Below the pieces are notes generated by a model. It was not told the DNA's origin. It ran no database searches and saw only the letters and a program-made list of their open reading frames with translations. A program made the translations under genes and the position numbers. Of a DNA stretch of 44,779 nt, positions 19,978 to 32,663 are shown piece by piece. This stretch comes from Candidatus Poribacteria bacterium (GTDB lineage: Bacteria; Poribacteria; WGA-4E; JAJDTR01): the NCBI GenBank assembly GCA_022827055.1, contig JAJDTR010000056.1, positions 1 to 44,779 of the forward strand, read 5' to 3'. Within the stretch, counting starts at the first letter, position 1. Each line of letters starts with the position of its first letter.

Positions 19978-20100
19978 AAATCAAGGCGGCGACGCGAACA
20001 GATGTTCCAACGCCGATTGGCTCCCGGATTTCACGGTTATTCACAACCAACTCTTTTCGACACGTCAGACGCGATTTCCGAGTGTCACGCCGATTTGATG

Positions 20101-20130
20101 TTGACATCTGATTTGGGCAATTGTTATTAT
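20101..20130 (+). promoter_or_regulatory. Sigma-70 promoter for the S55-domain gene
   Basis: A perfect TTGACA (20101-20106), 18 bases, TATTAT (20125-20130). Transcription would begin near 20137, about 80 bases before the start codon. Nothing else is visible in the 19978-20218 gap. Confidence 0.6.
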
Positions 20131-20218
20131 TGTCTGTCCCTGCGAAGAGCCGGGTTCAACATTTACTAATGGCAAATCTTAACCACAATGACCGACAATT
20201 TAAAGTAAGGTGGACAAT

Positions 20219-22072
20219 TTGAAAAAGGTTTGGCTTATTGGAATTATCACATTTTGCCTGATGGCGCTAGAAGCAAACGGGCAAATCAAGTGGGACTCCT
20301 CGAAATTTATGCCTCTCTCTGAGGTTAAACCCGGCATGATGGGGGAAGCATTCACCGTATTCTCCGGCACAACGGTAGAAAAATTTAACTTTGAGGTCGT
20401 TAGCATTGAGTACAATTTCGCGCCGCAGTGGCACGTGATATGGGTAAGGGGAAGCGGTGAGAACTATGAACGAACTGGCGTGGCTGGCGGAATGAGCGGC
20501 AGTCCCGGATACATCAACGGACGGCTCATGGGTGCGTTGTCTCTCGGCTACTTCAACCAGCGCGAGTATTCAAACATCGCGGGATTCACGCCCATTGAAT
20601 CCATGATTGACGTTACCCATCGCGGAATGACGCCGAAACTTAGTTATCGAGGTGGGACGCTGTTTAGCTTCGGGGCTAATCGTGCGCAACAAGGAATTGA
20701 CATGCTGCCGTTTCCTACTGAGAATACCGCGAATAACGTCGAATTGACTGAGACTTCCTCCGCTTTTCCAATTTTAGCTGCAAGTACGGCCCGTCTTGAA
20801 GTTCCTGTGGCATTTTCCGCGATGAGTCACCAAGCGATGACATTACTAGCGCCTATTCTTGCGAAATACCGACTGCATCCGTTACAAGCAGGGGGTGGCG
20901 GTTCACCAGTAAAGGACGCGCCTATCGAACCGGGGCAGATTATCGGCACCGAATTCGCGCGCGGCGATTTTTCGATGTTCGGTTACGGAACAATGACGTA
21001 TATCGAAAACAACCAAGTGCTTGGATTTGGACATAGCGCATTCGGAGAAGGCAATGTCAATCTACCGGTTTCTGGAGGTTACGTTCACTTTATATTACCG
21101 AGTATTTCGAGATCCTTCAAAGTAGCTGGTCCGACAAAACCGATCGGCACAATGGTGCAGGATAGACAAGCTGCAATTGCAGGCACTATCGGATCCTCGC
21201 CCAGTTATATTCCGGTGCAAGCTAACATTGAAACTACCGATGGACGGACGTACCCGATGCAATTTGATGCCATGCGTCATCAAGGGTTTTCCGCCCTAAT
21301 CGCCATGATTGGCGCCTTAAATCTTCTGGACTCCGTTGAAATGAGCACGGGAGATCATACTATCAATATCAACTCCGTGATTACGCTTAAAGATCAGCCG
21401 AACTTGGATTCCCGGAAGATTACGCATGAAAATGTCTACTCCTCGAGTTCGTCACCGGGTTTCGCGATGTTTCAAGTGCTTGCTCCGTTATCGAACTTAA
21501 TAGGGAACACCTACACTAAGGTTTCCGTAGAACAGGTAGAGTTAAATCTAAAACTTGAAGACAAGCGCAAAACCGCGGTCATTGAAGCGATTCGAATTAA
21601 CAAGGATCGCTACCGTCCTGGAGAAGTCATTGAAGTCACGATTACGTTGCGTCCATATTTGGAAGCCCCCATAATTCAAACGGGCCGCATCACGATTCCG
21701 GACGACGCCCCCGAGGGATTGACGACACTTCTCGCCACGAGCGCCACCTCTTATGAAAGCTTTCAGCGGGCTCGGGCACCCATGAATTACCGTCCTATGG
21801 ACATCAATCAACTAATCGCAATTTTACAACGTGGTGAAAGCAACAGCGATCTAATCCTTGAACTCTTCACAGCGGAACGTGGGATGACGGTGCAAGGCCA
21901 AGAGTTCTCTAACCTTCCATTATCGGTGATGTCGGTAATGAGTACCGCCACGCAGGTTGGCGAGGGCGGCAATACGCTGGGAACCACGCTACACGTTGCA
22001 AACCATTCAACAGCGTATGTCATTTCCGGCAGTAGATTTGTACGATTCACCATCGACTACAACGCGCCGTAA
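20219..22072 (+). CDS. Secreted SpoIVB peptidase S55-like domain protein
   Basis: About 617 residues with an N-terminal signal peptide (MKKVWLIGIITFCLMALEANG). Residues 30-130 match the S55-type domain found in many environmental bacteria: MPLSEVKPGMMGEAFTVF, GVAGGMSGSPGYINGRLMGALSLG with the candidate catalytic serine (S93 or S95), and IAGFTPIESM. A second conserved block, VLGFGHSAFGEGN, places H272 well after the serine. I prefer TTG 20219 because AAGG (20207-20210) then has normal spacing; GTG 20210 would overlap it. The C-terminal ~200 residues look beta-rich. Proteolytic activity is not proven for this non-spore branch. The next gene downstream is also secreted, so the two may cooperate outside the inner membrane. 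Confidence 0.78.
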   Translation: MKKVWLIGIITFCLMALEANGQIKWDSSKFMPLSEVKPGMMGEAFTVFSGTTVEKFNFEVVSIEYNFAPQWHVIWVRGSGENYERTGVAGGMSGSPGYINGRLMGALSLGYFNQREYSNIAGFTPIESMIDVTHRGMTPKLSYRGGTLFSFGANRAQQGIDMLPFPTENTANNVELTETSSAFPILAASTARLEVPVAFSAMSHQAMTLLAPILAKYRLHPLQAGGGGSPVKDAPIEPGQIIGTEFARGDFSMFGYGTMTYIENNQVLGFGHSAFGEGNVNLPVSGGYVHFILPSISRSFKVAGPTKPIGTMVQDRQAAIAGTIGSSPSYIPVQANIETTDGRTYPMQFDAMRHQGFSALIAMIGALNLLDSVEMSTGDHTININSVITLKDQPNLDSRKITHENVYSSSSSPGFAMFQVLAPLSNLIGNTYTKVSVEQVELNLKLEDKRKTAVIEAIRINKDRYRPGEVIEVTITLRPYLEAPIIQTGRITIPDDAPEGLTTLLATSATSYESFQRARAPMNYRPMDINQLIAILQRGESNSDLILELFTAERGMTVQGQEFSNLPLSVMSVMSTATQVGEGGNTLGTTLHVANHSTAYVISGSRFVRFTIDYNAP

Positions 22073-22182
22073 CTATGAAAATGCAGAATCTCATCTGTTT
22101 TTCCGCCCAATTCTTTAGTGCATGAGGCATAGATTCGGTCGGCATGATTTCCCAACATGGATTTAAAGGAGGCCCTTTCCTG

Positions 22183-24264
22183 ATGTCTTTTCGTTTGATC
22201 TTGGTTATTCTTTTACTCTGCCTTTATTGCGTCACTCCGTTGTCGGCGGTAACCACATCAATTTGGGAGCAAAGCAGCCAGAAGCACTTTGAAGCTGGCA
22301 CTCTCAAAGACGTATCGGTTACAAGCGAAGGCGAGGTTCTTTTAGCACGGAAAATCGACCAATTTGTGGAGATACAAGAAGAAATTTACGTTTGGTCACT
22401 CGCTGAAGATTCAAAAGGCAATATCTATGCCGGTACAGGAAATCAGGGCAAAATATATCGGATCGCTCCGGACGGTCAGTCGTCGCTCTTCTACGATTCT
22501 CCCGAAGTCTCGATACTAAGTCTAACGGTAGATGCAAACGATAATGTTTATGCCGGTACGGGACCGGACGGGTTGATCTACAAGATTACAAGCGAGAATG
22601 TCCCGCCGACGACAATTCTGAGTTCTGAAGAGAAGTATGTGTGGGCATTGACATTCGACGATAGCGGCAATCTCTACGCAGCCACCGGCACAGCCGGGAA
22701 AATCTACAAGATTCCATCGACCGGCGAAGCCACGATTCTATTCGATTCGGAAGAGACCAATATCAGGAGTTTGCTTTACCACGAGAATTCTCTGTATGCT
22801 GGTAGCGGCGGCAAAGGGATAATTTACCGCATCTCCGTTGATGGTGAAGCTTCAGTTGTACATCAAACCGCTGAAAAAGAAGTCCCTGTGCTCATAGGTG
22901 GTGCGGATGGAAATATTTATGCCGCCGCCATTACATCGGCGCCGCCGCAGCCCGGTAGCCAGAATCGCCCCCCTCCGCCGCCGCCTTCGGGTGGTGGCCC
23001 TCCTGAGGAAAAGAAATCTTACATATACCAGATACGAAAAGATGGTGTTGTGTCGAAAATCTGGACTGCCCCGGTGCCACTCATACTATCTATGGTTTTT
23101 GAGGGTGAGGATCAGTTGCTGATTGGGACAGGCGACGAAGGAAAAATCTACAGGGTCGATATTGACGGTGATTTCATTTCCGTGGGAAAATGCGATGCTA
23201 GCCAGATATTGGCCTTACACCGTGCAGCGAGCTCAGACAAACTGTTACTTGGCACGGGAAATTCCGCAAAAATTTACGAACTGATGACAGAATATAAGGC
23301 GGAAGGTACTATTGAGTCCAAACCGCACAACACCCGAGCCATATCTCGTTGGGGCAAATTGCGGTGGGAAGCAAGTCTGGGAGAAGGAACATCTATTGCT
23401 TTCGCAACACGCTCCGGCAACACCAAGAAGCCCGACAACACATGGAGCGAGTGGTCAGACGAATTGATCGCCTCGGAAGGCAGTCAAATTGTAAGTCCCT
23501 CGGCGCGGTATATCCAATGGCGTGCGAAGCTTACGGCGAGCGATTCGTCACTAACTCCCGTGCTCGATAAAGTTGTATTAGCTTCCGCTCAAGCCAACAT
23601 TGAACCTCGATTCACAGAGGTTGAAATTCAGCACGGAAACGAACCAAAGGAAACGGGAGCGCCGCCTAGCCCACGTCCCCGTGAGAGCGGACCTCCAAAA
23701 CGATCGGGAAACCAGTCAAAGCAGTGGACTGTTCAATGGAAAATAGAAGATTTGAACAAAGATACGCTGCAATTTGCCGTTTATTACAAGCGGATTCACG
23801 AGACGAACTGGAAACTTCTAAAGAAAGAACTGACGGCCACCAGCTATAACTGGGACACAACGTCAATGCCGGACGGACGTTATATCATCAAAGTAGAGGC
23901 AACGGACAGACTTAGTAATCCTCCGGCTTGGGCGAAATCCTCCGAAAAAATGAGCAAACCTTTTGATATTGATAATACGCAGCCATCAGTCGGCGATGTC
24001 GTAGCTACCGCCAATGGGAATGGAACCTACAAAATTACCTGCACCACCGAGGACGAATCAAGTCACATTCAAAAGGCGGTGTATAAGATTGATGGTGACG
24101 AACACTGGAAGGTAATCTTTCCCGAGGACGGTATATTTGATTCCAAAAAGGAGACGTTGCTGCTCCAAACAAGATCGCTTCCGGCCGGAGCACACACAAT
24201 AACCATTCAGGTAACTGACGCCGCAGAGAATGTTGCTGTTGGCAGTGCGAACTTCGCAAATTGA
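22183..24264 (+). CDS. Secreted beta-propeller protein with proline-rich insert
   Basis: A 693-residue exported protein with a signal peptide (FRLILVILLLCLYCVTPLSA, cleavage near residue 22). Residues about 70-380 hold repeated blades of the form NIYAGTGNQGKIYRI, NVYAGTGPDGLIYKI, NLYAATGTAGKIYKI and LYAGSGGKGIIYRI, an NHL/SMP30-like propeller. The propeller is broken by a proline/glycine-rich run encoded around 22940-23010. The C-terminal third looks like Ig/fibronectin-type beta-sandwiches (WKIEDLNKDTLQFAVYYK, PDGRYIIKVEATDR). ATG 22183 is preceded by AAAGGAGG (22165-22172). It follows the S55-domain gene by 110 bases. Probable role: an extracytoplasmic binding or scaffold protein; no catalytic motif seen. 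Confidence 0.75.
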   Translation: MSFRLILVILLLCLYCVTPLSAVTTSIWEQSSQKHFEAGTLKDVSVTSEGEVLLARKIDQFVEIQEEIYVWSLAEDSKGNIYAGTGNQGKIYRIAPDGQSSLFYDSPEVSILSLTVDANDNVYAGTGPDGLIYKITSENVPPTTILSSEEKYVWALTFDDSGNLYAATGTAGKIYKIPSTGEATILFDSEETNIRSLLYHENSLYAGSGGKGIIYRISVDGEASVVHQTAEKEVPVLIGGADGNIYAAAITSAPPQPGSQNRPPPPPPSGGGPPEEKKSYIYQIRKDGVVSKIWTAPVPLILSMVFEGEDQLLIGTGDEGKIYRVDIDGDFISVGKCDASQILALHRAASSDKLLLGTGNSAKIYELMTEYKAEGTIESKPHNTRAISRWGKLRWEASLGEGTSIAFATRSGNTKKPDNTWSEWSDELIASEGSQIVSPSARYIQWRAKLTASDSSLTPVLDKVVLASAQANIEPRFTEVEIQHGNEPKETGAPPSPRPRESGPPKRSGNQSKQWTVQWKIEDLNKDTLQFAVYYKRIHETNWKLLKKELTATSYNWDTTSMPDGRYIIKVEATDRLSNPPAWAKSSEKMSKPFDIDNTQPSVGDVVATANGNGTYKITCTTEDESSHIQKAVYKIDGDEHWKVIFPEDGIFDSKKETLLLQTRSLPAGAHTITIQVTDAAENVAVGSANFAN

Positions 24265-24462
24265 TTCCTCACCGTCCGACCATAGCTACCTACAACGTTT
24301 TGAAGGATTTCAATATCTCACTCCTTCGCCCGTTCCGAATGGTTAGTATACTCCTGCCCTTCTGGATTACATCGGAACCAAATCAGAAACTCGCCGCCTA
24401 TATTGTTACCTTTCCCTGCTAAAACCGACTTCGGGAATGCGGGGCTGAATTTCTTAAGCAAA

Positions 24463-25827
24463 TCATGCTCTGGATTGTTCGCCCGTAACCCGTTCGATGG
24501 CGTTGTATACAATCTCAAGTAGCCCATCAAGTTCAGCGATAGTGATTTGCAAGGGCGGCATCAGGACAATGACATTTACGAGCGGCCGTAACATTGCACC
24601 ATTCCTCAACACTTCTTGACACACCCGCATGCCCACCTTTTCTGTCGCCGGGTACTCCTCTTTGGTGATTCTGTCTCGTACCAGTTCTATGCCGGCTGCC
24701 AATCCGCAGACGCGTACATCCCCAACGTGGTCGAGGGTATAGAATTTCTGAAGGCGATCTTTGAAGTGTTCAATCGTAGGTTGAATCTTGCGAATAAGGT
24801 CTGTTTTCTCGAAGAGATTGATGTTTGCCAATGCGGCGGCACAACCCAACTGATTGCCTGTAAAAGTGTGCCCATGGAAAAAGGTCTTGAAATCCCTGTA
24901 GTCTCCGAGAAATGCTTCATAAATTTCATCGGTTGTAAGGGTTGCAGCCAAGGGAAGATACCCCGCCGTTAGTCCCTTGGCGGAGCACAGAATATCTGGC
25001 ACAACCTCCTCGTGTTCACATCCCCACATTTTCCCGGTACGTCCGAAACCCGTCATTACCTCATCAAGGATGAGAAGCGTATTATACTTCCGCGCTAGCG
25101 CCGCTGCGCCCTTCAGAAATCCCGTGGGCGAGACAATCATGCCGCCCGCCCCTTGGACAAGTGGCTCTAAGATAACCGCGGCGATTTCCCCTTCGCGCTT
25201 TTGTAGTACCTTTTCCATCTCACCCAAACAGTAGTCTCTTACCGTGTCGGAGTTTTGCCCAGCTACCAACCGATACACACAAGGCGCGGGGATTGCCGCA
25301 CTTTCAAATAGAAGTCCATCAAATGTCTTGCGAAATAGGTCTATTCCGCCTACGCTCATTGCGCCTACAGTATCGCCGTGATAGGCACCGTCGAGATGTA
25401 AATATACCTCCCGTCGTGGCTCTCCCTTCTGCCGCCAATATTGATATGCCATCTTCAAAGCGACTTCGACCGATGTGGCGCCATCATCGGAATAAAAAAC
25501 CCTGTTCAGCCCGCGTGGTGTTATCTCTACCAGTTTCTTCGCGAGTTGAATCGCCGGAACGTTTGCGTACCCCAATAATGTGGAATGTGCAATCTTATTA
25601 AGTTGTGCAGTGATGGCATCATTGATTTCTTTCCGGTTATGGCCATGGACGTTTGTCCACATTGAGGCAACCCCATCAATGTACCGATTGCCTTCCGTAT
25701 CAATCAGGTAAATCCCTTCCCCCCGTTCAACGATAACCGGTATTTCCTCCATCCATTCCTTCATCTGTGTGAATGGATGCCAAAGATGTTTTCTGTCCCA
25801 TTCTACGAGTATTTTCTTGTTCAACAT
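24463..25827 (-). CDS. bioA: Adenosylmethionine-8-amino-7-oxononanoate aminotransferase
   Basis: A 454-residue PLP-dependent class III aminotransferase that makes 7,8-diaminopelargonate in biotin synthesis. Diagnostic features: WHPFTQM (16-22), GDTVGAMSVGG (151-161), LLILDEVMTGFGRTG with the PLP-nitrogen Asp255, and CSAKGLTAGYLP with Lys284 forming the Schiff base. Length is normal for BioA. The WHPFTQ motif separates BioA from other class III enzymes. No other bio gene lies in the window, so the pathway must be encoded elsewhere. No clear ribosome binding site precedes the ATG. A strong hairpin (25861-25896) lies between it and the gene upstream, so it probably has its own promoter. Confidence 0.9.
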   Translation of the reverse strand: MLNKKILVEWDRKHLWHPFTQMKEWMEEIPVIVERGEGIYLIDTEGNRYIDGVASMWTNVHGHNRKEINDAITAQLNKIAHSTLLGYANVPAIQLAKKLVEITPRGLNRVFYSDDGATSVEVALKMAYQYWRQKGEPRREVYLHLDGAYHGDTVGAMSVGGIDLFRKTFDGLLFESAAIPAPCVYRLVAGQNSDTVRDYCLGEMEKVLQKREGEIAAVILEPLVQGAGGMIVSPTGFLKGAAALARKYNTLLILDEVMTGFGRTGKMWGCEHEEVVPDILCSAKGLTAGYLPLAATLTTDEIYEAFLGDYRDFKTFFHGHTFTGNQLGCAAALANINLFEKTDLIRKIQPTIEHFKDRLQKFYTLDHVGDVRVCGLAAGIELVRDRITKEEYPATEKVGMRVCQEVLRNGAMLRPLVNVIVLMPPLQITIAELDGLLEIVYNAIERVTGEQSRA

Positions 25828-25860
25828 ACGGATTTACGCAATAAAATACACCAAAACGAA

Positions 25861-25896
25861 AATGCGGAATCTAGAAAGCGCTCTAGATTCCGCATT
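25861..25896 (-). terminator. Probable Rho-independent terminator after the ferredoxin fusion gene
   Basis: A perfect 15-bp stem, AATGCGGAATCTAGA (25861-25875) with TCTAGATTCCGCATT (25882-25896), and a 6-base loop. Read on the minus strand it is followed by a T-rich run (TTTTCGTTTT). It would end the transcript of the gene at 25975-27213 and insulate bioA. Confidence 0.65.
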
Positions 25897-25974
25897 GTAG
25901 GAAATTGATAAAAATAGTATGGTAATCTGCTAAATTACTCGGACCGCGCCACGAACCGAAGTGTGTTGTGATTA

Positions 25975-27213
25975 CTATCCCTTCAGTTTGGCGTAATGCA
26001 CTGGTTGTTCAATCACAAGGTCAGCAGCTTTTCCGACTTTCGGAACGATTATCTCAAGCACCTTATCGCGTAAATCCGCACGATAATCGTTCGGATCTCC
26101 TGCGACTTGGAAGGTATTCCTGAACCCATTCGGAAACGAACTCGCCCGCCCCAGAACTTGAGAGAAACGCGGGTCCTCCAATTTGGCCTCGACGGTTAAC
26201 GTGTCATCCTCCAAGTCGATCTGATATGCATAATCGGGCATTCGATCGGGTAAATCAAACTGTTTCTTATACACGGAGTCGGGCACCCAGCGCGGAAACT
26301 CGATTTCGATCTGGTAGTAATCCGATTCTTCCTGTATACGATTCACCATCCCGTAACGACGATACCGTTCTCTCAAGTCGTCTGAGTAGATTGGGCCATC
26401 TGTTAGAACCGCTCCCGGCACACTCGAACGCGGTGCGCTTGGCTGTGAAACAATAGTAGATTTTAGCGCCGACAGAATCATCTGGGCAATAAATGATGGT
26501 ATCCAGCCGTAAAATGCGGCTCCGTATCGAGATTTTTCTTCGCTTTCCGTAGAAACCAAATCATCCTTGAAGCGATAAAGCCCTTCAACCATCGCGAACA
26601 CAACGCCAATGAAGATGGCAAAATTGCTCTCAGCCGTAAAGAGACCAACGCCGCGCCCTTGGACGGCAAATAGGAAAAGTAAAACAGGATAAAGTGTTAG
26701 ATTAATCAAACAGTTGATGCCAGTTGAAACGGCGGAGCTAAATACCCGCGAATTGTCAACCAGCTCTTCCAGTTCACTTTTGAACTTCGCGGAAAATGCG
26801 CCAAACACCGGTTGGGCAAGCGTTATGAACAGACGTAAAACCGGGCGAATTGTGGAGCCCGGCAAATCGGGCAGTTGGACAAATTCCTCCGGGATCCCTT
26901 GTCTTTTGTCTGCTGTCTGTCCATCTCCACCCGCGCCTCCGGCGGCGTCCCCGCCAGTATCGGGCTTTACGAACGTCTCAAAAAATTTCTCGTTTATTTC
27001 AATATAGGAATTCCATTCTGCCGGAACCTCGTCGTGCATAAAAATTGCGTTGACAGGACAGGCTGGCTCGCATGCGGCGCAATCAATGCACTCATCCGGA
27101 TTGATGTAGAGTTGATTGTCGCCATCGACAGTATGAATGCAATCAACGGGACAAACATCAACACAGGCTGTGTCTTTGACATCAACGCAGGGTTCACAAA
27201 TCACATACGCCAT
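25975..27213 (-). CDS. Ferredoxin / membrane / Hsp20-like fusion protein
   Basis: A 412-residue protein of unusual build. Residues 1-60 are a FdxA-type dicluster ferredoxin: C6, C9, C17, C21 and C25, then C42-x2-C45-x2-C48-x3-C52-P, suited to a [3Fe-4S] or [4Fe-4S] plus a [4Fe-4S] centre. A Gly/Asp-rich linker (86-105) follows. Three hydrophobic stretches (about 163-186, 196-213 and 229-250) predict membrane insertion. Residues about 295-395 resemble an alpha-crystallin (Hsp20) beta-sandwich: YYQIEIEFPRWVP, YQIDLEDDTLTVEAKLED and a final VLEIIVPKV strand, which mirrors the family's GVLTI.VPK end. ATG with AGGAG 9 bases upstream. The Hsp20 call is by pattern and less certain than the ferredoxin. 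It may couple redox state to membrane protein protection. Confidence 0.72.
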   Translation of the reverse strand: MAYVICEPCVDVKDTACVDVCPVDCIHTVDGDNQLYINPDECIDCAACEPACPVNAIFMHDEVPAEWNSYIEINEKFFETFVKPDTGGDAAGGAGGDGQTADKRQGIPEEFVQLPDLPGSTIRPVLRLFITLAQPVFGAFSAKFKSELEELVDNSRVFSSAVSTGINCLINLTLYPVLLFLFAVQGRGVGLFTAESNFAIFIGVVFAMVEGLYRFKDDLVSTESEEKSRYGAAFYGWIPSFIAQMILSALKSTIVSQPSAPRSSVPGAVLTDGPIYSDDLRERYRRYGMVNRIQEESDYYQIEIEFPRWVPDSVYKKQFDLPDRMPDYAYQIDLEDDTLTVEAKLEDPRFSQVLGRASSFPNGFRNTFQVAGDPNDYRADLRDKVLEIIVPKVGKAADLVIEQPVHYAKLKG

Positions 27214-27268
27214 CTTCCGCTTCTCCTAGCTAAACGCACCTTGGTCCTCAACTGTTGGTTAATGAAGT

Positions 27269-27297
27269 ATTATACCATAGCCGACATGCTGTCGCAA
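27269..27297 (-). promoter_or_regulatory. Promoter for the ferredoxin fusion gene
   Basis: On the minus strand, TTGCGA (27297-27292), 17 bases, then an extended -10 TGG-TATAAT (27277-27269). The leader would be about 50 bases. The region faces away from the sigma-factor promoter at 27459. Confidence 0.6.
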
Positions 27298-27458
27298 GAA
27301 TTTATAGTCCAGTTTGCATATCCGATACTCCTATTTTTCGATCTCATGAGTTGCCGCGATCCAGGCGAATCAGGAGGGTACCCGCCGCCACGTTCTATTC
27401 AATGACTATCTAATCCGATTGAACCACAAAAGTAATTATGGTATTTTTCCGATGTAGA

Positions 27459-27467
27459 TGGTATAAT
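27459..27467 (+). promoter_or_regulatory. Extended -10 promoter for the sigma/FHA operon
   Basis: TGG-TATAAT (27459-27467) without a recognisable -35 box. The leader to the TTG start at 27626 would be about 150 bases, long enough to hold regulation, though I see no structured element in it. The divergent region 27214-27625 contains nothing else that I can name. Confidence 0.5.
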
Positions 27468-27625
27468 TCGCGCAATTGTGGCTAATTGTGTAGTTTTCCA
27501 TTGCATGAACAGCGAGATTCATGTTCTTGAAATCCTTTTGCTTTTTTGAAACGCGTGTCCTTCACGAGCGTTGAAAGTTGTAGCAACAGGGTCTGAAGTG
27601 CTCGGCGCAAAGGAGGACACGAGCT

Positions 27626-28237
27626 TTGGTGCACCGGATGATTGACGACCCCTCAGCTCAGGAAGATACTGACCTAGCAAAGCTTACAAAGAACCACGAT
27701 GAGGCCGCATTTCGGACTCTCTTTGATAAGCACTACAACTGGGTTTACAGTAAAACTTACCGGATGCTAGGTAACCACCAAGACAGTGAAGAAATTAGTC
27801 TAGATATATTTGTCAAAGTATGGCAAAAGATCGAAAAGTGGGATACCAATCAGGGGAGTTTTCAATCATGGTTAAACGTTGTTGCGAAGAATACTATTAT
27901 TGACGCAATACGGAAGAAAGAAAGGATTCGTGAATCTCTTCTAAGCATGGAGGACGAAGCTGACGTGCCACTAAGTGAATACGAAGACAGCAAACCAACT
28001 CCTGACAAGCAACTCGAATCCCAAGAAGTTCAGGAAATTGTGGAACAGGCTCTCCTTCAAGTGACAAAGCCGAATCACCGGCTTGCATGGATTTTACGTC
28101 ATATAGAAGGATGCAGCATCGCCGAGATTTCACACATTCTCCAGCGTAAAGAGGGCACGGTGAAGATTTGGATCTTTCGCTGTGCAGGTGAACTCCGTCA
28201 AATTTTAAATAGAAAAGGGATCCAGTTGATTTACTGA
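27626..28237 (+). CDS. ECF-type RNA polymerase sigma factor
   Basis: A 203-residue sigma-70-family factor of extracytoplasmic-function type: region 2 (about residues 10-90) with AFRTLFDKHYNWVYSKTYRML, DSEEISLDIFVKVWQKI and SWLNVVAKNTIIDAIRKK, and region 4 (about 135-195) with AWILRHIEGCSIAEISHILQRKEGTVKIWIFRC, the helix-turn-helix that reads the -35. There is no region 1.1 or 3. The TTG start is set by AGGAGG (27611-27616) 9 bases upstream; GTG 27629 is also possible. The next gene starts 16 bases later and probably encodes its partner. The signal it responds to is unknown. Confidence 0.9.
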   Translation: MVHRMIDDPSAQEDTDLAKLTKNHDEAAFRTLFDKHYNWVYSKTYRMLGNHQDSEEISLDIFVKVWQKIEKWDTNQGSFQSWLNVVAKNTIIDAIRKKERIRESLLSMEDEADVPLSEYEDSKPTPDKQLESQEVQEIVEQALLQVTKPNHRLAWILRHIEGCSIAEISHILQRKEGTVKIWIFRCAGELRQILNRKGIQLIY

Positions 28238-28253
28238 TGGGAGGAATAGGTTA

Positions 28254-29366
28254 ATGAATTTTTGGAAAAGATTTAAGCCAAACCACGAACGTGGAGATGA
28301 CGTTCATCGTGCAGAAATGTTAGATGTTTACACGCGTTGGCTTAAAGGCGAAAAGTTGTCACGAAAGCACAGACAAGTGTTAAAAGCGTGCCAAAAATCG
28401 GCAGAACTCGAACCTTTAAGAGAACTAGTCGATTTTGCGCATTACCAGTTCCAGCAGACCGAGGGAATTCAACCTCGTCCGGGAGCAAAAGAAAGAATTG
28501 CGAACGCGGTAATGAGAAGCGTTAATCGGCAATTACCGGAATCAGAGTCATGGAGCATGGATGGAATCGCATTGGAACCGGTGTATAGCCCTGAACAAGT
28601 TGGGAGCGATAGTGAGCTCGCTTACTCCCCGACTCCGGGCGCTTCGCCTATTCCCTCTGGGGCAGACATTTCTCTTGATGAAACTATTGTAGTGGAGCCA
28701 GAGAACAGCGACGCAAACAACATTGCTTCTCCCACGGTGAGAAACCGCAGCCTAAAGTTAAAAGTCATTCAGGGCGACCAGGTCGGAACTGAATTCAATC
28801 TTGTTTTCGCACAGATGACGATTGGACGAGGACCTGATTCAACTATCCATTTGAAGAATAATGCCAGCGCCTCGCGTAGTCATGCCGTACTGAGCATTGA
28901 AAACGAAGAATTGTATATTACCGATCTCGACAGTAGCAACGGCACATATGTCGACGAACAGCGAATCTCAAGCCCAACTCCGATCTATCTTGCGTCCCAA
29001 ATTATCATTGGGGATCAGGTGCTCCAAGTTACCGAACTGCGACGAGAAGACGATGCATTTCACGTTACCTTTAAAGCGATAGCCGGCGCAGATATCGGGC
29101 AACCCTATACGGTGAGGGTTCGGGAAATGACAGTAGGGCGAGGCACGAAAACAACGTTTCGTCTTTCAGACTCGACAGGAAGGCTCTCGCGACGCCATGC
29201 CGGATTCGAACTGACGAATGGGGATATACATCTCAGAGACTTGGGCAGCACGAATGGAACCTATGTTGATGGAACCCGCATTGAAGCGCCCACAAGAATA
29301 AATGTGGGGGCGGTCATAAAACTGGGTGGTATTAGCTGTGAAGTGATAGCCATCGAACACTCATAA
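28254..29366 (+). CDS. Double FHA-domain protein, probable sigma-factor partner
   Basis: A 370-residue soluble protein. The N-terminal ~95 residues (basic, helical, with ELEPLRELVDFAHYQFQQ) resemble the compact helical part of anti-sigma-type proteins, but I see no zinc-binding motif. A disordered linker (100-165) holds LDETIVV with T144. Two FHA domains follow: 168-260 (GRG 191-193, SRSH 207-210, SSNG 227-230) and 272-368 (GRG 295-297, SRRH 312-315, STNG 332-335); both keep the phosphothreonine-binding residues. ATG with GGGAGG (28239-28244) 9 bases ahead, 16 bases after the sigma gene, and a strong terminator after it. The likely role is to bring Ser/Thr phosphorylation into control of the ECF factor (inference). 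Confidence 0.83.
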   Translation: MNFWKRFKPNHERGDDVHRAEMLDVYTRWLKGEKLSRKHRQVLKACQKSAELEPLRELVDFAHYQFQQTEGIQPRPGAKERIANAVMRSVNRQLPESESWSMDGIALEPVYSPEQVGSDSELAYSPTPGASPIPSGADISLDETIVVEPENSDANNIASPTVRNRSLKLKVIQGDQVGTEFNLVFAQMTIGRGPDSTIHLKNNASASRSHAVLSIENEELYITDLDSSNGTYVDEQRISSPTPIYLASQIIIGDQVLQVTELRREDDAFHVTFKAIAGADIGQPYTVRVREMTVGRGTKTTFRLSDSTGRLSRRHAGFELTNGDIHLRDLGSTNGTYVDGTRIEAPTRINVGAVIKLGGISCEVIAIEHS

Positions 29367-29412
29367 AACGAAGTATCTTATACGCACGCAGGTCGTTTGC
29401 TTTTTCATAATT

Positions 29413-29460
29413 CCCGACTGTTTTCACCATCTTGACACAGTGGTGAACAGTCGGGTTTTT
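29413..29460 (+). terminator. Rho-independent terminator of the sigma/FHA operon
   Basis: The arms CCCGACTG...CACCA (29413-29429) and TGGTGAACAGTCGGG (29441-29455) pair fully apart from a 2-base bulge. The loop is about 11 bases and a TTTTT run (29456-29460) follows. Confidence 0.85.
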
Positions 29461-29483
29461 ATTATTTATACTAAGCGCTTTGT

Positions 29484-30683
29484 GTGTCTGAGGCGTCTAA
29501 TTTAGAGAGGTGGAACCTACCACAATCTCGCACGCAAGTATCATTTAGAACGCCAATGAATCGGACACAGGTCGCAGGAACGCATTTCAACCGCGCTACG
29601 GACTGTTTTCAACATGGCCGCTACGCTGAAGCCATTCGGCACTACCGGACTGGACTGGAAATCGAAGCAACGCGCGCCGAGATATACGCCGATCTGTCCA
29701 AATCGTACGAAATGGTGGGGCGGTGGGATGATGCACTGGACTGCCTGAATCGTGCGTTGGAATTGAGTCCGGACCATCCAACCGTCTTGCGTCGCAGGGA
29801 GCGCATCCAAGAGGAAAAACAGGTTTATGAGGCGTTGCTCCACGGGTGCAAACTAGATCCGGAACCGCCTGAAGACCTTCTACTCGAGTCTACAGACACC
29901 GGCTCTTGCCCTAGAATTAGACGTGAACGTTTCGTTCTTGAGTGTGACGACACGATTTCGTTGAACACGTCGTGGTCCTTGTGCCAACTCATTGAGCAGA
30001 CCTCCCGTGAACTAGGTGAACTCCTCCAATGTTACCCTACGCGAGAAGTCTCGGTCGTGCTTGAAGATGTCGAACTTCGTGATGAAGTGGAGATTCAAGA
30101 GCATGCACCTGCTAATTTCACCTTCTCCTTGTCAGGGGTCTCGGACTACGAAGGCCGCATTCGACTCGCCATCAGCATCTATGAAGAGCCTAATCCTGGG
30201 CTATTGCTGGCGTTGATTCGCCATGAGTGGGTTCATTTGCTCGTGGATATACTGGCACACCGGCGGTGCCCCGTGTGGTTTAACGAAGGACTTGCTCAGA
30301 TTCTCGCTCGACCTCTCATGGAGTTTGAGAGAACACGTTTACGGCGGGCATATCATAAATGTCAGTTCTTGCGGATCGATGAACTCCAACAACAATTTGG
30401 CAACATGCCGCCGGATCGGCGAAAATTAGCGTACCTGCAATCAACCGGGTTTATGGAGTATTTGATTCACCGAAATGGCTTTTCCCGAATTTACGATTTC
30501 CTTCGTTTCATTGGTAATGGTGTCACGCCCGACGTTGCGTTTCAACATTTTTTTGATGGAACACATGAGACTATCATGGACAAGTGGAAAGAGGTGATTG
30601 ACCGTGGCGAAACTCGATATCGCGATTGTCGTGCTCGCGACCTTGGGCGGCGTCAAGTGTTTCCGAGCTGGCTTTACGCGTAG
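29484..30683 (+). CDS. TPR protein with gluzincin (MA-like) peptidase domain
   Basis: A 399-residue protein. Residues about 33-110 contain two TPR units (AIRHYRTGLEI, ALDCLNRALELSP). The C-terminal domain has HEWVH (H247, E248, H251) and a downstream WFNEGLA with E268, the zinc-binding and catalytic pattern of MA-clan peptidases. No signal peptide or membrane helix, so it may act in the cytoplasm or be docked by partners. The start is uncertain: GTG 29484 lies within a few bases of a predicted transcription start, and ATG 29556 would remove 24 residues ahead of the TPRs; neither has a good ribosome binding site. The end overlaps the CvpA gene. Confidence 0.78.
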   Translation: MSEASNLERWNLPQSRTQVSFRTPMNRTQVAGTHFNRATDCFQHGRYAEAIRHYRTGLEIEATRAEIYADLSKSYEMVGRWDDALDCLNRALELSPDHPTVLRRRERIQEEKQVYEALLHGCKLDPEPPEDLLLESTDTGSCPRIRRERFVLECDDTISLNTSWSLCQLIEQTSRELGELLQCYPTREVSVVLEDVELRDEVEIQEHAPANFTFSLSGVSDYEGRIRLAISIYEEPNPGLLLALIRHEWVHLLVDILAHRRCPVWFNEGLAQILARPLMEFERTRLRRAYHKCQFLRIDELQQQFGNMPPDRRKLAYLQSTGFMEYLIHRNGFSRIYDFLRFIGNGVTPDVAFQHFFDGTHETIMDKWKEVIDRGETRYRDCRARDLGRRQVFPSWLYA

Positions 30684-31107
30684 TGTTTGGGGAATTGCTG
30701 CCATCTCTGCTGGCCTTTTTACGGCAAACCAATTATGGGGGGCACTCGCGCCAATTATGGGTCATTGGATCGAAGACCAGGGAGCAGTGAAGTGGGTCAG
30801 TGTGATTGTAATCACGCTAGTGGTCAGTATAGTAATTGACATAGTGTTTGGGCGTATTCAGGAAGTTCTTGATACCGGCGTTTTAGGTTGGATAAACAGC
30901 CTCGTTGGTGGTGCGTTTGGTGTGGCAGCGAGTTGCGTGCTGCTTGCCATTGCATTCATGTTGGCGAACCGTTATGGAAACGAATCTATACAGACGATAA
31001 TCAACGATTCCCGCTTCGGACCCTCCCTATTGGAAATTGGCAACCAAATCTTCGATTTTGGGAAAGAGGCTATTAAAGAACAAACCGAAAATTTGAAGAA
31101 TCTGTAA
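30604..31107 (+). CDS. CvpA-family inner-membrane protein
   Basis: A 167-residue protein with four hydrophobic helices and the CvpA pattern: KLDIAIVVLATLGGVKCFRAGFTRSVWGIAA at the N-terminus, a second helix pair at SVIVITLVVSIVIDIVFG, then GWINSLVGGAFGVAASCVLLAI. CvpA proteins sit in the inner membrane and are linked to colicin V production and envelope homeostasis; no biochemical reaction is established. GTG 30604 has GAGGTG (30591-30596) at 7 bases. It begins 80 bases inside the preceding peptidase gene in another frame, indicating co-expression. Confidence 0.82.
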   Translation: MAKLDIAIVVLATLGGVKCFRAGFTRSVWGIAAISAGLFTANQLWGALAPIMGHWIEDQGAVKWVSVIVITLVVSIVIDIVFGRIQEVLDTGVLGWINSLVGGAFGVAASCVLLAIAFMLANRYGNESIQTIINDSRFGPSLLEIGNQIFDFGKEAIKEQTENLKNL

Positions 31108-31123
31108 CGAATCGACCAAGAAA

Positions 31124-31624
31124 GTGACAAAATTGGCGAATCGATTTGAAGATATCATCTCTCAGAAGTCTTGCTCCACCCGCCGTTTTCTCCGCACAAT
31201 CACTGTGGGCGGTTTTCTGATATTACTCACCATACCGATTCAAGCCGATATCTCTAGCACGCTAAAATCAACGCTGTTGGAAAGAGCACTTGCCCAAAAT
31301 ATCGCCTACCAGTCAGTGTCATTCAGTATCGCAGCCGAATCGAAGTCGTCAAACTCGAATCCGCAACAACAGATTGGAACAGTAAGTGCCAGCCTTCGAC
31401 AATTATTAATTCTACCAATCCGACTGCATCGAGAAGTAATTACGCATCAAGATGGAGCTGTATGTAGTTTTCAGCCGAGTTGCTCGCGTTATGGTTTGGC
31501 AGCCATTCGCCGCTACGGTCTAAAGGGTCTACTGATGGCAAGCGACCGACTATTGCGATGTCATAGCGGAAGTCACAATTACTATCCCGTGTTTGAAAGA
31601 TCTGCCTATGACCCCGTACCTTGA
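31124..31624 (+). CDS. YidD-like membrane insertion factor with N-terminal extension
   Basis: A 166-residue protein. The C-terminal ~70 residues are a YidD domain: LLILPIRLHREV, then CSFQPSCSRYGLAAIRRYG (C114, C120), LMASDRLLRCH (C146) and the terminal YDPVP. YidD assists YidC in inserting inner-membrane proteins. Ordinary YidD proteins are about 70-100 residues; this one carries about 90 extra N-terminal residues with TRRFLR and a hydrophobic stretch (27-38), resembling a signal or twin-arginine leader. If genuine, that would put the domain outside the cytoplasm, unlike known YidD. The GTG start has a weak ribosome binding site. It follows CvpA by 16 bases. Confidence 0.78.
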   Translation: MTKLANRFEDIISQKSCSTRRFLRTITVGGFLILLTIPIQADISSTLKSTLLERALAQNIAYQSVSFSIAAESKSSNSNPQQQIGTVSASLRQLLILPIRLHREVITHQDGAVCSFQPSCSRYGLAAIRRYGLKGLLMASDRLLRCHSGSHNYYPVFERSAYDPVP

Positions 31625-31712
31625 AGACAAACGTCCCCACCGATGCAGATGCCAAATTCATGCTTCTTCATAGAACGGATGTTGGCGCTGCATTCGAATC
31701 TTAAGCAAGAAA

Positions 31713-32663
31713 ATGACAAAAACGCATTGTCGCTTCGCACTTTTTCCTCCTACCATAATACTGCTTTCCGTACTGCTATCAGCCGCCCATTCTCAAGAAT
31801 TCAGCAAAAGCGATTTGCTTGACTTTGCAGATTCTCTGTTTCAGCAAGCGGATTATCTCAACGCGGCGCACGAATACAGGCGCTATCTATTTCTGTTTCC
31901 TGGAGAAGAAAATAGCGATTTTGTTCAATTTCGTCTCGCCGCATCCTATCAGAACGCGGGCAAATTGGAATCGGCAATTCAAGCCTACCAACTCTTGATT
32001 GATACATTCCCGTTCAGCACACTAATGCAACGTGCACAATCCAATATCGCCCAATGCCAGCTCTTGGAGGGAAATAAAGAGATGGCGATTCGATCGTTAC
32101 AACAGTTCTTGTCAACATATCCCGAGAGTGATCTGGCACCACGAGCGCAGTTTATGATTGCGACCGTGCAAATGGAGGGCAAAGATTGGGAGAAAGCATC
32201 AAAGACATGGGAAAAAATTGCCGTCAAATATCCGGATACGCGGTTCGCAGAGGCGAGCCATCGGCTTATATGTATAGTAAGAAGCAGCAAGTTGATGCCT
32301 CAGCGCTCTCCAACCTTCAGTGGTTTGCTCTCGGCGGTCATACCGGGGCTTGGACAAGCGTATAGCGGCCGCTTTTTGGATGGCCTCCAATCGCTAACTG
32401 TTATTGGAACAATCGGAGCGGGAACGGCATACTACATCAATCGGGAGCAGTATGAAGTAGCCATACCGGTGGGGCTGCTGGGGCTATTCTTCTATGCGGG
32501 CAATGTTTATGGAGGCGTGCAAGCTGCCATGACATTTAATAGTCGCCAGGAAGACAAGTTCCTCGACGGTTTACGAGATGAAATCCACAAGTCAGGGCTT
32601 TTCGGCATGTCACGAACTCGATCTACGGACATCTCACTTGTGTTATTGCGTGCCCGTTTCTAA
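31713..32663 (+). CDS. Exported TPR protein with C-terminal membrane domain
   Basis: A 316-residue protein with a signal peptide (about 1-27, ending SAAHS-QEF) and three to four YbgF/BamD-like tetratricopeptide repeats (ADYLNAAHEYRRYLFLFPG, GKLESAIQAYQLLIDTFP, GNKEMAIRSLQQFLSTYP, KDWEKASKTWEKIAVKYP). The C-terminal part has hydrophobic segments with the AVIPGLGQAYSGRFLDGLQSL motif of small membrane modules (DUF5683-like) and GLLGLFFYAGNVYGG. Probably periplasmic repeats anchored in the membrane. Pairing with YidD in the same transcript suggests an envelope biogenesis role (inference). Confidence 0.75.
   Translation: MTKTHCRFALFPPTIILLSVLLSAAHSQEFSKSDLLDFADSLFQQADYLNAAHEYRRYLFLFPGEENSDFVQFRLAASYQNAGKLESAIQAYQLLIDTFPFSTLMQRAQSNIAQCQLLEGNKEMAIRSLQQFLSTYPESDLAPRAQFMIATVQMEGKDWEKASKTWEKIAVKYPDTRFAEASHRLICIVRSSKLMPQRSPTFSGLLSAVIPGLGQAYSGRFLDGLQSLTVIGTIGAGTAYYINREQYEVAIPVGLLGLFFYAGNVYGGVQAAMTFNSRQEDKFLDGLRDEIHKSGLFGMSRTRSTDISLVLLRARF

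Follow-up and report, generated by a model that had tools for sequence, protein, structure and literature searches.

A poribacterial ferredoxin fused to predicted membrane segments and to a domain of predicted Hsp20-like fold is probably linked to biotin synthesis and is a tentative candidate electron donor for biotin synthase

What a ferredoxin does in one chain with membrane segments and a domain of the small heat-shock protein type is the question raised by a gene in a Candidatus Poribacteria genome (G000, contig C10). The window, that is, the whole stretch of DNA analysed, has a length of 44,779 nucleotides, and the gene and the parts of its product lie in it as follows:

25975..27213, minus strand: ferredoxin/membrane/Hsp20-like fusion gene, an open frame for 412 amino acids, stop codon included
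26971..27213, minus strand: residues 1-81, 7Fe-type (FdxA-like) ferredoxin domain, from the NF045480 score and the alignment with 2v2k, 1h98 and 1bc6
26860..26970, minus strand: residues 82-118, variable Gly/Asp/Lys-rich linker (13-84% identity, 11 rows compared)
26428..26859, minus strand: residues 119-262, hydrophobic region with predicted membrane segments, from hydropathy scans and helices in the tail model
26032..26367, minus strand: residues about 283-394, predicted alpha-crystallin (Hsp20/CS-like) domain (ACD), from predicted models

The preliminary description of this DNA had read all of these parts as one chain, had named a non-Hsp20 fold of the C-terminal part or a frameshift joining two genes as the findings that would overturn this, neither of which was borne out, and had proposed that the product is a redox-reporting, membrane-anchored holdase. 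One intact 412-residue frame does occupy 25975-27213 on the minus strand, no frameshift was found, and a frameshift or chance joining of two genes is ruled out by full-length homologues of the whole chain in 53 of 58 related genomes. The single chain with its ferredoxin, its predicted membrane segments and its C-terminal part of predicted Hsp20-like fold was therefore retained as described, and the redox-reporting holdase was not. The full-length AlphaFold model is poor (mean pLDDT 53.8, with the ferredoxin part below 50), so that no arrangement of the domains is claimed; a predicted model of the tail only is better (mean pLDDT 78.6, pTM 0.46).

The ferredoxin part is of the 7Fe type. The whole fusion protein scored 120.4 bits against NF045480 (FdxA), just below the cut-off of 125, and 88.5 against NF045490, below the cut-off of 135, and residues 1-81 align end to end with the solved 7Fe ferredoxins 2v2k, 1h98 and 1bc6. 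All nine cysteines counted in the preliminary description are present; eight of them (Cys 9, 17, 21, 25, 42, 45, 48 and 52) are invariant in 43/43 fused rows, and the ninth, Cys6, is a cysteine in 35 of these rows. By this pattern and the alignment, the domain has the cysteines required to bind a [3Fe-4S] and a [4Fe-4S] cluster, and seven of the eight invariant cysteines are presumably the ligands of the 7Fe clusters. FdxA-type ferredoxins are electron carriers. No Fe-S scaffold or carrier family matched the fusion protein in the profile searches.

A stretch rich in Gly, Asp and Lys follows at residues 82-118, which agrees with the Gly/Asp linker described before, though it is poorly conserved. 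Hydropathy scans placed the strongest hydrophobic segment at 166-184 and the next at 191-215 and 232-250, the three expected stretches, and added a weaker, borderline fourth at 122-140; helices are predicted across this region in the tail model. Segment 232-250 outscores 191-209 on one hydropathy scale and scores worse on another, and because of this disagreement neither the number of spans nor the membrane side of the ACD is fixed.

The full-length model and the tail model both place a predicted beta sandwich at the C-terminus, and structure comparison of the models matched it to small heat-shock proteins (sHSPs) and CS domains. The alpha-crystallin likeness is thus good at the level of the predicted fold, where residues about 283-394 matched Hsp20/CS, and it is weak in sequence. 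The ACD alone scored 17.7 bits against Pfam HSP20 (PF00011), below the gathering cut-off of 20.8, a match to this family at E<=10 was obtained for 3 of 25 family members, and when the ACD alignment was run as a profile against the PDB, none of the 10 matches at E<=10 was an sHSP. The conserved Gly before the last strand is invariant in 18 Hsp20s of the phylum; at this position the fusion ACDs have K, R or N in alignment A1, and no row of the fusion alignments A1 or A2 has Gly there. Across f1-f7, conservation within the ACD is highest in motifs peculiar to this family. An [ILV]-x-[ILV] motif, which we take to resemble the IXI anchor of sHSPs, follows the ACD in 38/39 order-level rows, a motif that carries little information. 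Ordinary Hsp20s are also present in 20/20 genomes searched.

The fusion is widespread in the phylum. Among the 58 related genomes, the five other than the 53 with the full chain are G019, where the match runs off the contig end, and G003, G006, G009 and G055, which have separate ferredoxins only; separate FdxA-type ferredoxins occur in the genomes, too. A search with the tail only found it in 73/84 genomes of the phylum, comprising 68 in the order and five in the distant family f7. Four of the five f7 homologues (487-526 aa) retain the ferredoxin, and the fifth, in G063, is a tail of 311 aa without it. A search of 5.8 billion clustered proteins with the tail profile, with scoring of the 7996 candidates that had the most words in common with it, gave 181 proteins at E<=1e-3, of which the best 120 were viewed. 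In named genomes there were nine full-length loci among 80 of at least 566 relatives, mostly matched by the ferredoxin alone, and all nine were titled Poribacteria. Among others in these lists, three proteins without the ferredoxin Pfam label were read: P0045 differs from its relatives at the two ends, and P0121 and P0138, whose first residues fall within the ferredoxin domain, seem to be gene calls cut short. In G072, a second, partial copy of 144 aa (L146:4664-5098), holding only the ferredoxin start and part of the tail, lies about 2 kb upstream of the intact gene.

In the ferredoxin tree (64 rows, 80 columns), which includes as a row an f7-like ferredoxin of 149 residues without a tail (L015:2093-2542), the fused ferredoxins from the order and those from f7 do not group together. 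The tree gave three changes, and a single change was seen in none of 200 bootstrap trees (0%); support at the deep forks is weak (57/82). A tree with such weak deep forks fits either one or two events joining the tail to this type of ferredoxin. Two f7 proteins (L141:5603-7177 and L143:282-1808) have an additional short helical motif where the ferredoxin gives way to the tail, and the end of the tail-less L015 ferredoxin resembles this motif as judged by eye.

The neighbourhood of the gene points to biotin synthesis. The two features following the fusion gene in the window are:

24463..25827, minus strand: bioA, adenosylmethionine-8-amino-7-oxononanoate transaminase (TIGR00508, 543.2 bits, cut-off 405), the next gene after the fusion
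25861..25896, minus strand: perfect hairpin of 16 pairs with a 4-base loop between fusion and bioA, at a single place in the genome

On the same strand, bioA is next in 67 of the 68 order-level carriers, with 34-227 nt between profile edges, and in the remaining one, G019, the contig stops inside the fusion gene. Seen from the other side, bioA is above the cut-off in 70/84 genomes, and apart from the 67 copies that directly follow the fusion, the other three belong to the f3 genomes G003, G006 and G009, which have bioA and bioB and no fusion; two of these have sufficient flanking sequence, and in them the two genes to one side of bioA are unchanged. The spacing was scored in 33 of 39 order-level copies, some of which are the same genome in two collections. 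The bioA start lies inside the fusion end in 5/33, 21-35 nt after it in 17/33, and 80-185 nt after it in 11/33, including the window, where the intervening stretches fold at -12.7 to -66.3 kcal/mol. Co-transcription is therefore likely for the tight pairs and possible for the window, whose hairpin is possibly a terminator or attenuator. Terminator-like sites were as frequent as in shuffles (4 vs 3.9), only the stem length of this hairpin standing out, promoter-like sites showed no excess (4 vs 4.1), and an Rfam scan of 20000-32000 gave nothing above gathering scores. On the other side of bioA, the window encodes a SpoIVB-peptidase-like and a beta-propeller protein (20210-22072 and 22144-24264, both plus strand), a pair also present next to bioA in 8 of the 10 loci that were compared and in two genomes of f3; in G066 (f7), relatives of the two flank bioB. 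Another protein of the window (31124-31624, plus strand; 166 aa) has a YidD domain at its end and an extra N-terminal part.

In family f7 no bioA was above the cut-off, and the partner is a different biotin gene. The gene bioW was found in 6/84 genomes, all of them f7 (five of the six below the curated cut-off of 226), and the tail gene follows it in 5/6, one such bioW having an internal deletion. The ferredoxin-less homologue of G063 likewise follows bioW; in G067, the sixth bioW genome, a different gene does. The fusion is thus tied genetically to the biotin pathway on two sides, with bioA next in 67 genomes and bioW before it in five of six in f7, and these neighbours speak against the holdase of the preliminary description. 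The six genomes without bioA, bioB and bioD above cut-offs all are without the tail, and the other 78 have it in 73; this tally was counted by hand on genome rows that are not independent. A Fisher p of 1.1e-6 is not relied on, since the genomes are related. What the analysis chiefly adds is this likely link between the fusion and biotin synthesis, and all function is inferred.

Which biotin enzyme would need such a protein? As bioA is the partner gene in f1, f2 and f4 but bioW in f7, and neither is shared, we propose as client biotin synthase (BioB), a redox Fe-S enzyme common to both lineages. The gene bioB is above the cut-off in 71/84 genomes and bioD in 72/84. For many bacteria it is not known what donates electrons to biotin synthase. 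According to PMC11099021, the donor in E. coli is the flavodoxin FldA with its NADPH reductase, the donor in mycobacteria is not known, and a small Fe-S protein, BsaP (Rv1590), is needed by actinobacterial BioB, in mycobacteria for the sulfur-insertion step. Flavodoxin_1 was found in 0/20 relatives, in a search whose control was positive in 10/14 well-known genomes. A gene for a PyrK-like FAD/NAD reductase (198.2 bits, below PyrK cut-offs) lies just upstream of bioB in 16/29 loci examined, comprising 16/16 in f1/f2 and 0/13 in f3, f4 and f7. These are L163:5888-6706 and 15 other bioB loci, and the product is a possible reductase for the biotin pathway. The fusion itself was absent among the ORFs of the nine bioB loci read, and in G000 bioB is on another contig.

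Considering these data, we tentatively assume that the fusion is a dedicated membrane-held electron donor for BioB, with the ACD as its docking domain. NAD(P)H electrons would pass to the ferredoxin clusters, in f1/f2 perhaps through the PyrK-like flavoprotein and elsewhere through another reductase; the membrane-held ferredoxin would reduce BioB, which would then cleave S-adenosylmethionine and insert sulfur into dethiobiotin. The chain from NAD(P)H over the PyrK-like protein and the fusion ferredoxin to BioB is drawn in this way because the PyrK-like gene lies beside bioB and flavodoxin was not found. The Hsp20-like domain would work as CS domains do, docking or holding either BioB or one of the neighbouring biotin enzymes, and would not serve as a general stress chaperone. 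The adjacency to bioA in 67 genomes and to bioW in 5/6 f7 genomes, together with the lack of a Flavodoxin_1 match in the 20 relatives, speaks for the donor role, and so do the missing tail in the six genomes without bioA, bioB and bioD above cut-offs, the eight kept cysteines, the PyrK-like gene by bioB and the BsaP precedent. Against it stand G003, G006 and G009, with bioA and bioB and no fusion, the homologue of G063 that has no ferredoxin, and the bioW of G067 that is followed by another gene. Furthermore, seven of the 73 fusion or tail carriers have no bioB above the cut-off, bioB is located elsewhere, the separate FdxA-type ferredoxins of these genomes could serve BioB, a hairpin separates fusion and bioA in the window, and the membrane side of the ACD is not fixed. 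This counter-evidence leaves room for a role in cluster repair, for a role at the pimelate stage, or for no functional link.

If there were no link, a general ferredoxin with a tail would owe its place next to bioA to shared descent and its place next to bioW to chance. The bioA neighbourhood may indeed be one inherited event within the order, and in the two f3 genomes with sufficient flanking sequence it persists although the fusion is missing; but the partner shifts from bioA to bioW between lineages, both being biotin genes, and even the ferredoxin-less tail of G063 follows bioW, so that we regard mere proximity as unlikely. A client other than BioB would be a membrane-linked step earlier in the pathway, one that builds the pimelate-derived carbon chain, and the fusion would be the electron donor for it. 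The membrane region and the position next to bioW, whose substrate is pimelate, would suit such a step; however, the fusion is mostly found in genomes without bioW, which is restricted to six f7 genomes of the 84, and no oxygenase or P450 gene stood out by eye among the neighbouring ORFs read. This makes a pimelate-stage donor quite improbable.

The auxiliary cluster of BioB is spent at turnover. The fusion might accordingly be imagined as an accessory for building or repairing BioB, its ferredoxin supplying or templating Fe-S clusters and its Hsp20-like part holding apo-BioB, and the presence of an Hsp20-like fold beside an Fe-S domain fits this. However, FdxA-type ferredoxins act as electron carriers, and the profile searches matched no scaffold or carrier family. 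The requirement of mycobacterial BioB for the Fe-S protein BsaP in sulfur insertion (PMC11099021) also agrees with a repair accessory, but the same genetic evidence suits an electron donor, and we consider the accessory distinctly unlikely. The redox-reporting holdase of the preliminary description, taken to act on stressed proteins, is favoured by the predicted ACD fold and by the [ILV]-x-[ILV] motif in 38 of 39 rows. It is very improbable in view of the biotin-gene context, the lack of the sHSP-invariant Gly in the A1 and A2 rows, the family-specific character of the most conserved ACD stretches in f1-f7, and the ordinary Hsp20s found in all 20 genomes searched. In case of the membrane-held donor for BioB, which we tentatively prefer, a further and rather doubtful step is to see in it a phylum-specific biotin machine, i.e. 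a one-chain membrane platform that combines a low-potential electron source with a dock of chaperone fold. The fusion gene names a candidate BioB donor in an uncultured phylum, and this candidate is testable in E. coli.

No report of a ferredoxin-membrane-ACD architecture was found in the literature searched, whose coverage mostly excludes subscription journals, and this chain would be the first known ferredoxin-ACD fusion. The novelty that the preliminary description saw in joining a ferredoxin to an sHSP-type domain holds to this extent, with the caveat that a CS domain, a relative of the Hsp20 fold, can sit inside a redox protein, as in Ncb5or (PMC9706631). Ncb5or (CYB5R4) has the order cytochrome b5, CS and b5 reductase, unlike the poribacterial fusion; it is an animal, soluble protein with heme and FAD instead of Fe-S and with no biotin link. 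The FdxA-type 7Fe ferredoxins 2v2k, 1h98 and 1bc6 share the cysteine pattern and align over the whole domain, whereas the poribacterial domain is fused to 330 further residues and the fusion, at 120.4 bits, narrowly misses the FdxA equivalog cut-off of 125. Small heat-shock proteins (PF00011) share the predicted ACD fold with weak profile similarity, but the fusion is below the Pfam cut-off, has the Gly replaced, shows conserved motifs of its own and carries a membrane region where Hsp20 has its N-terminal arm. This suggests that the Hsp20-type fold may be reused in a redox protein outside stress defence, and likeness to Hsp20 is not by itself a reason to call a protein a 'chaperone'.

In function, E. 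coli FldA with its NADPH reductase has the same role that is proposed here, electron donor to BioB (PMC11099021), but FldA is a flavin protein and its family was found in none of the 20 relatives. BsaP (Rv1590) is, like the fusion, an Fe-S protein genetically tied to biotin synthesis; it is tied to bioB itself, is reported to fit no ferredoxin motif described so far (PMC11099021), and has no membrane or ACD part. No BsaP-like family was among the best 25 of 85 NCBIfam rows for the fusion. If the donor role is true, the fusion would join BsaP as a further Fe-S helper, confined to its own lineage, that maintains the activity of biotin synthase.
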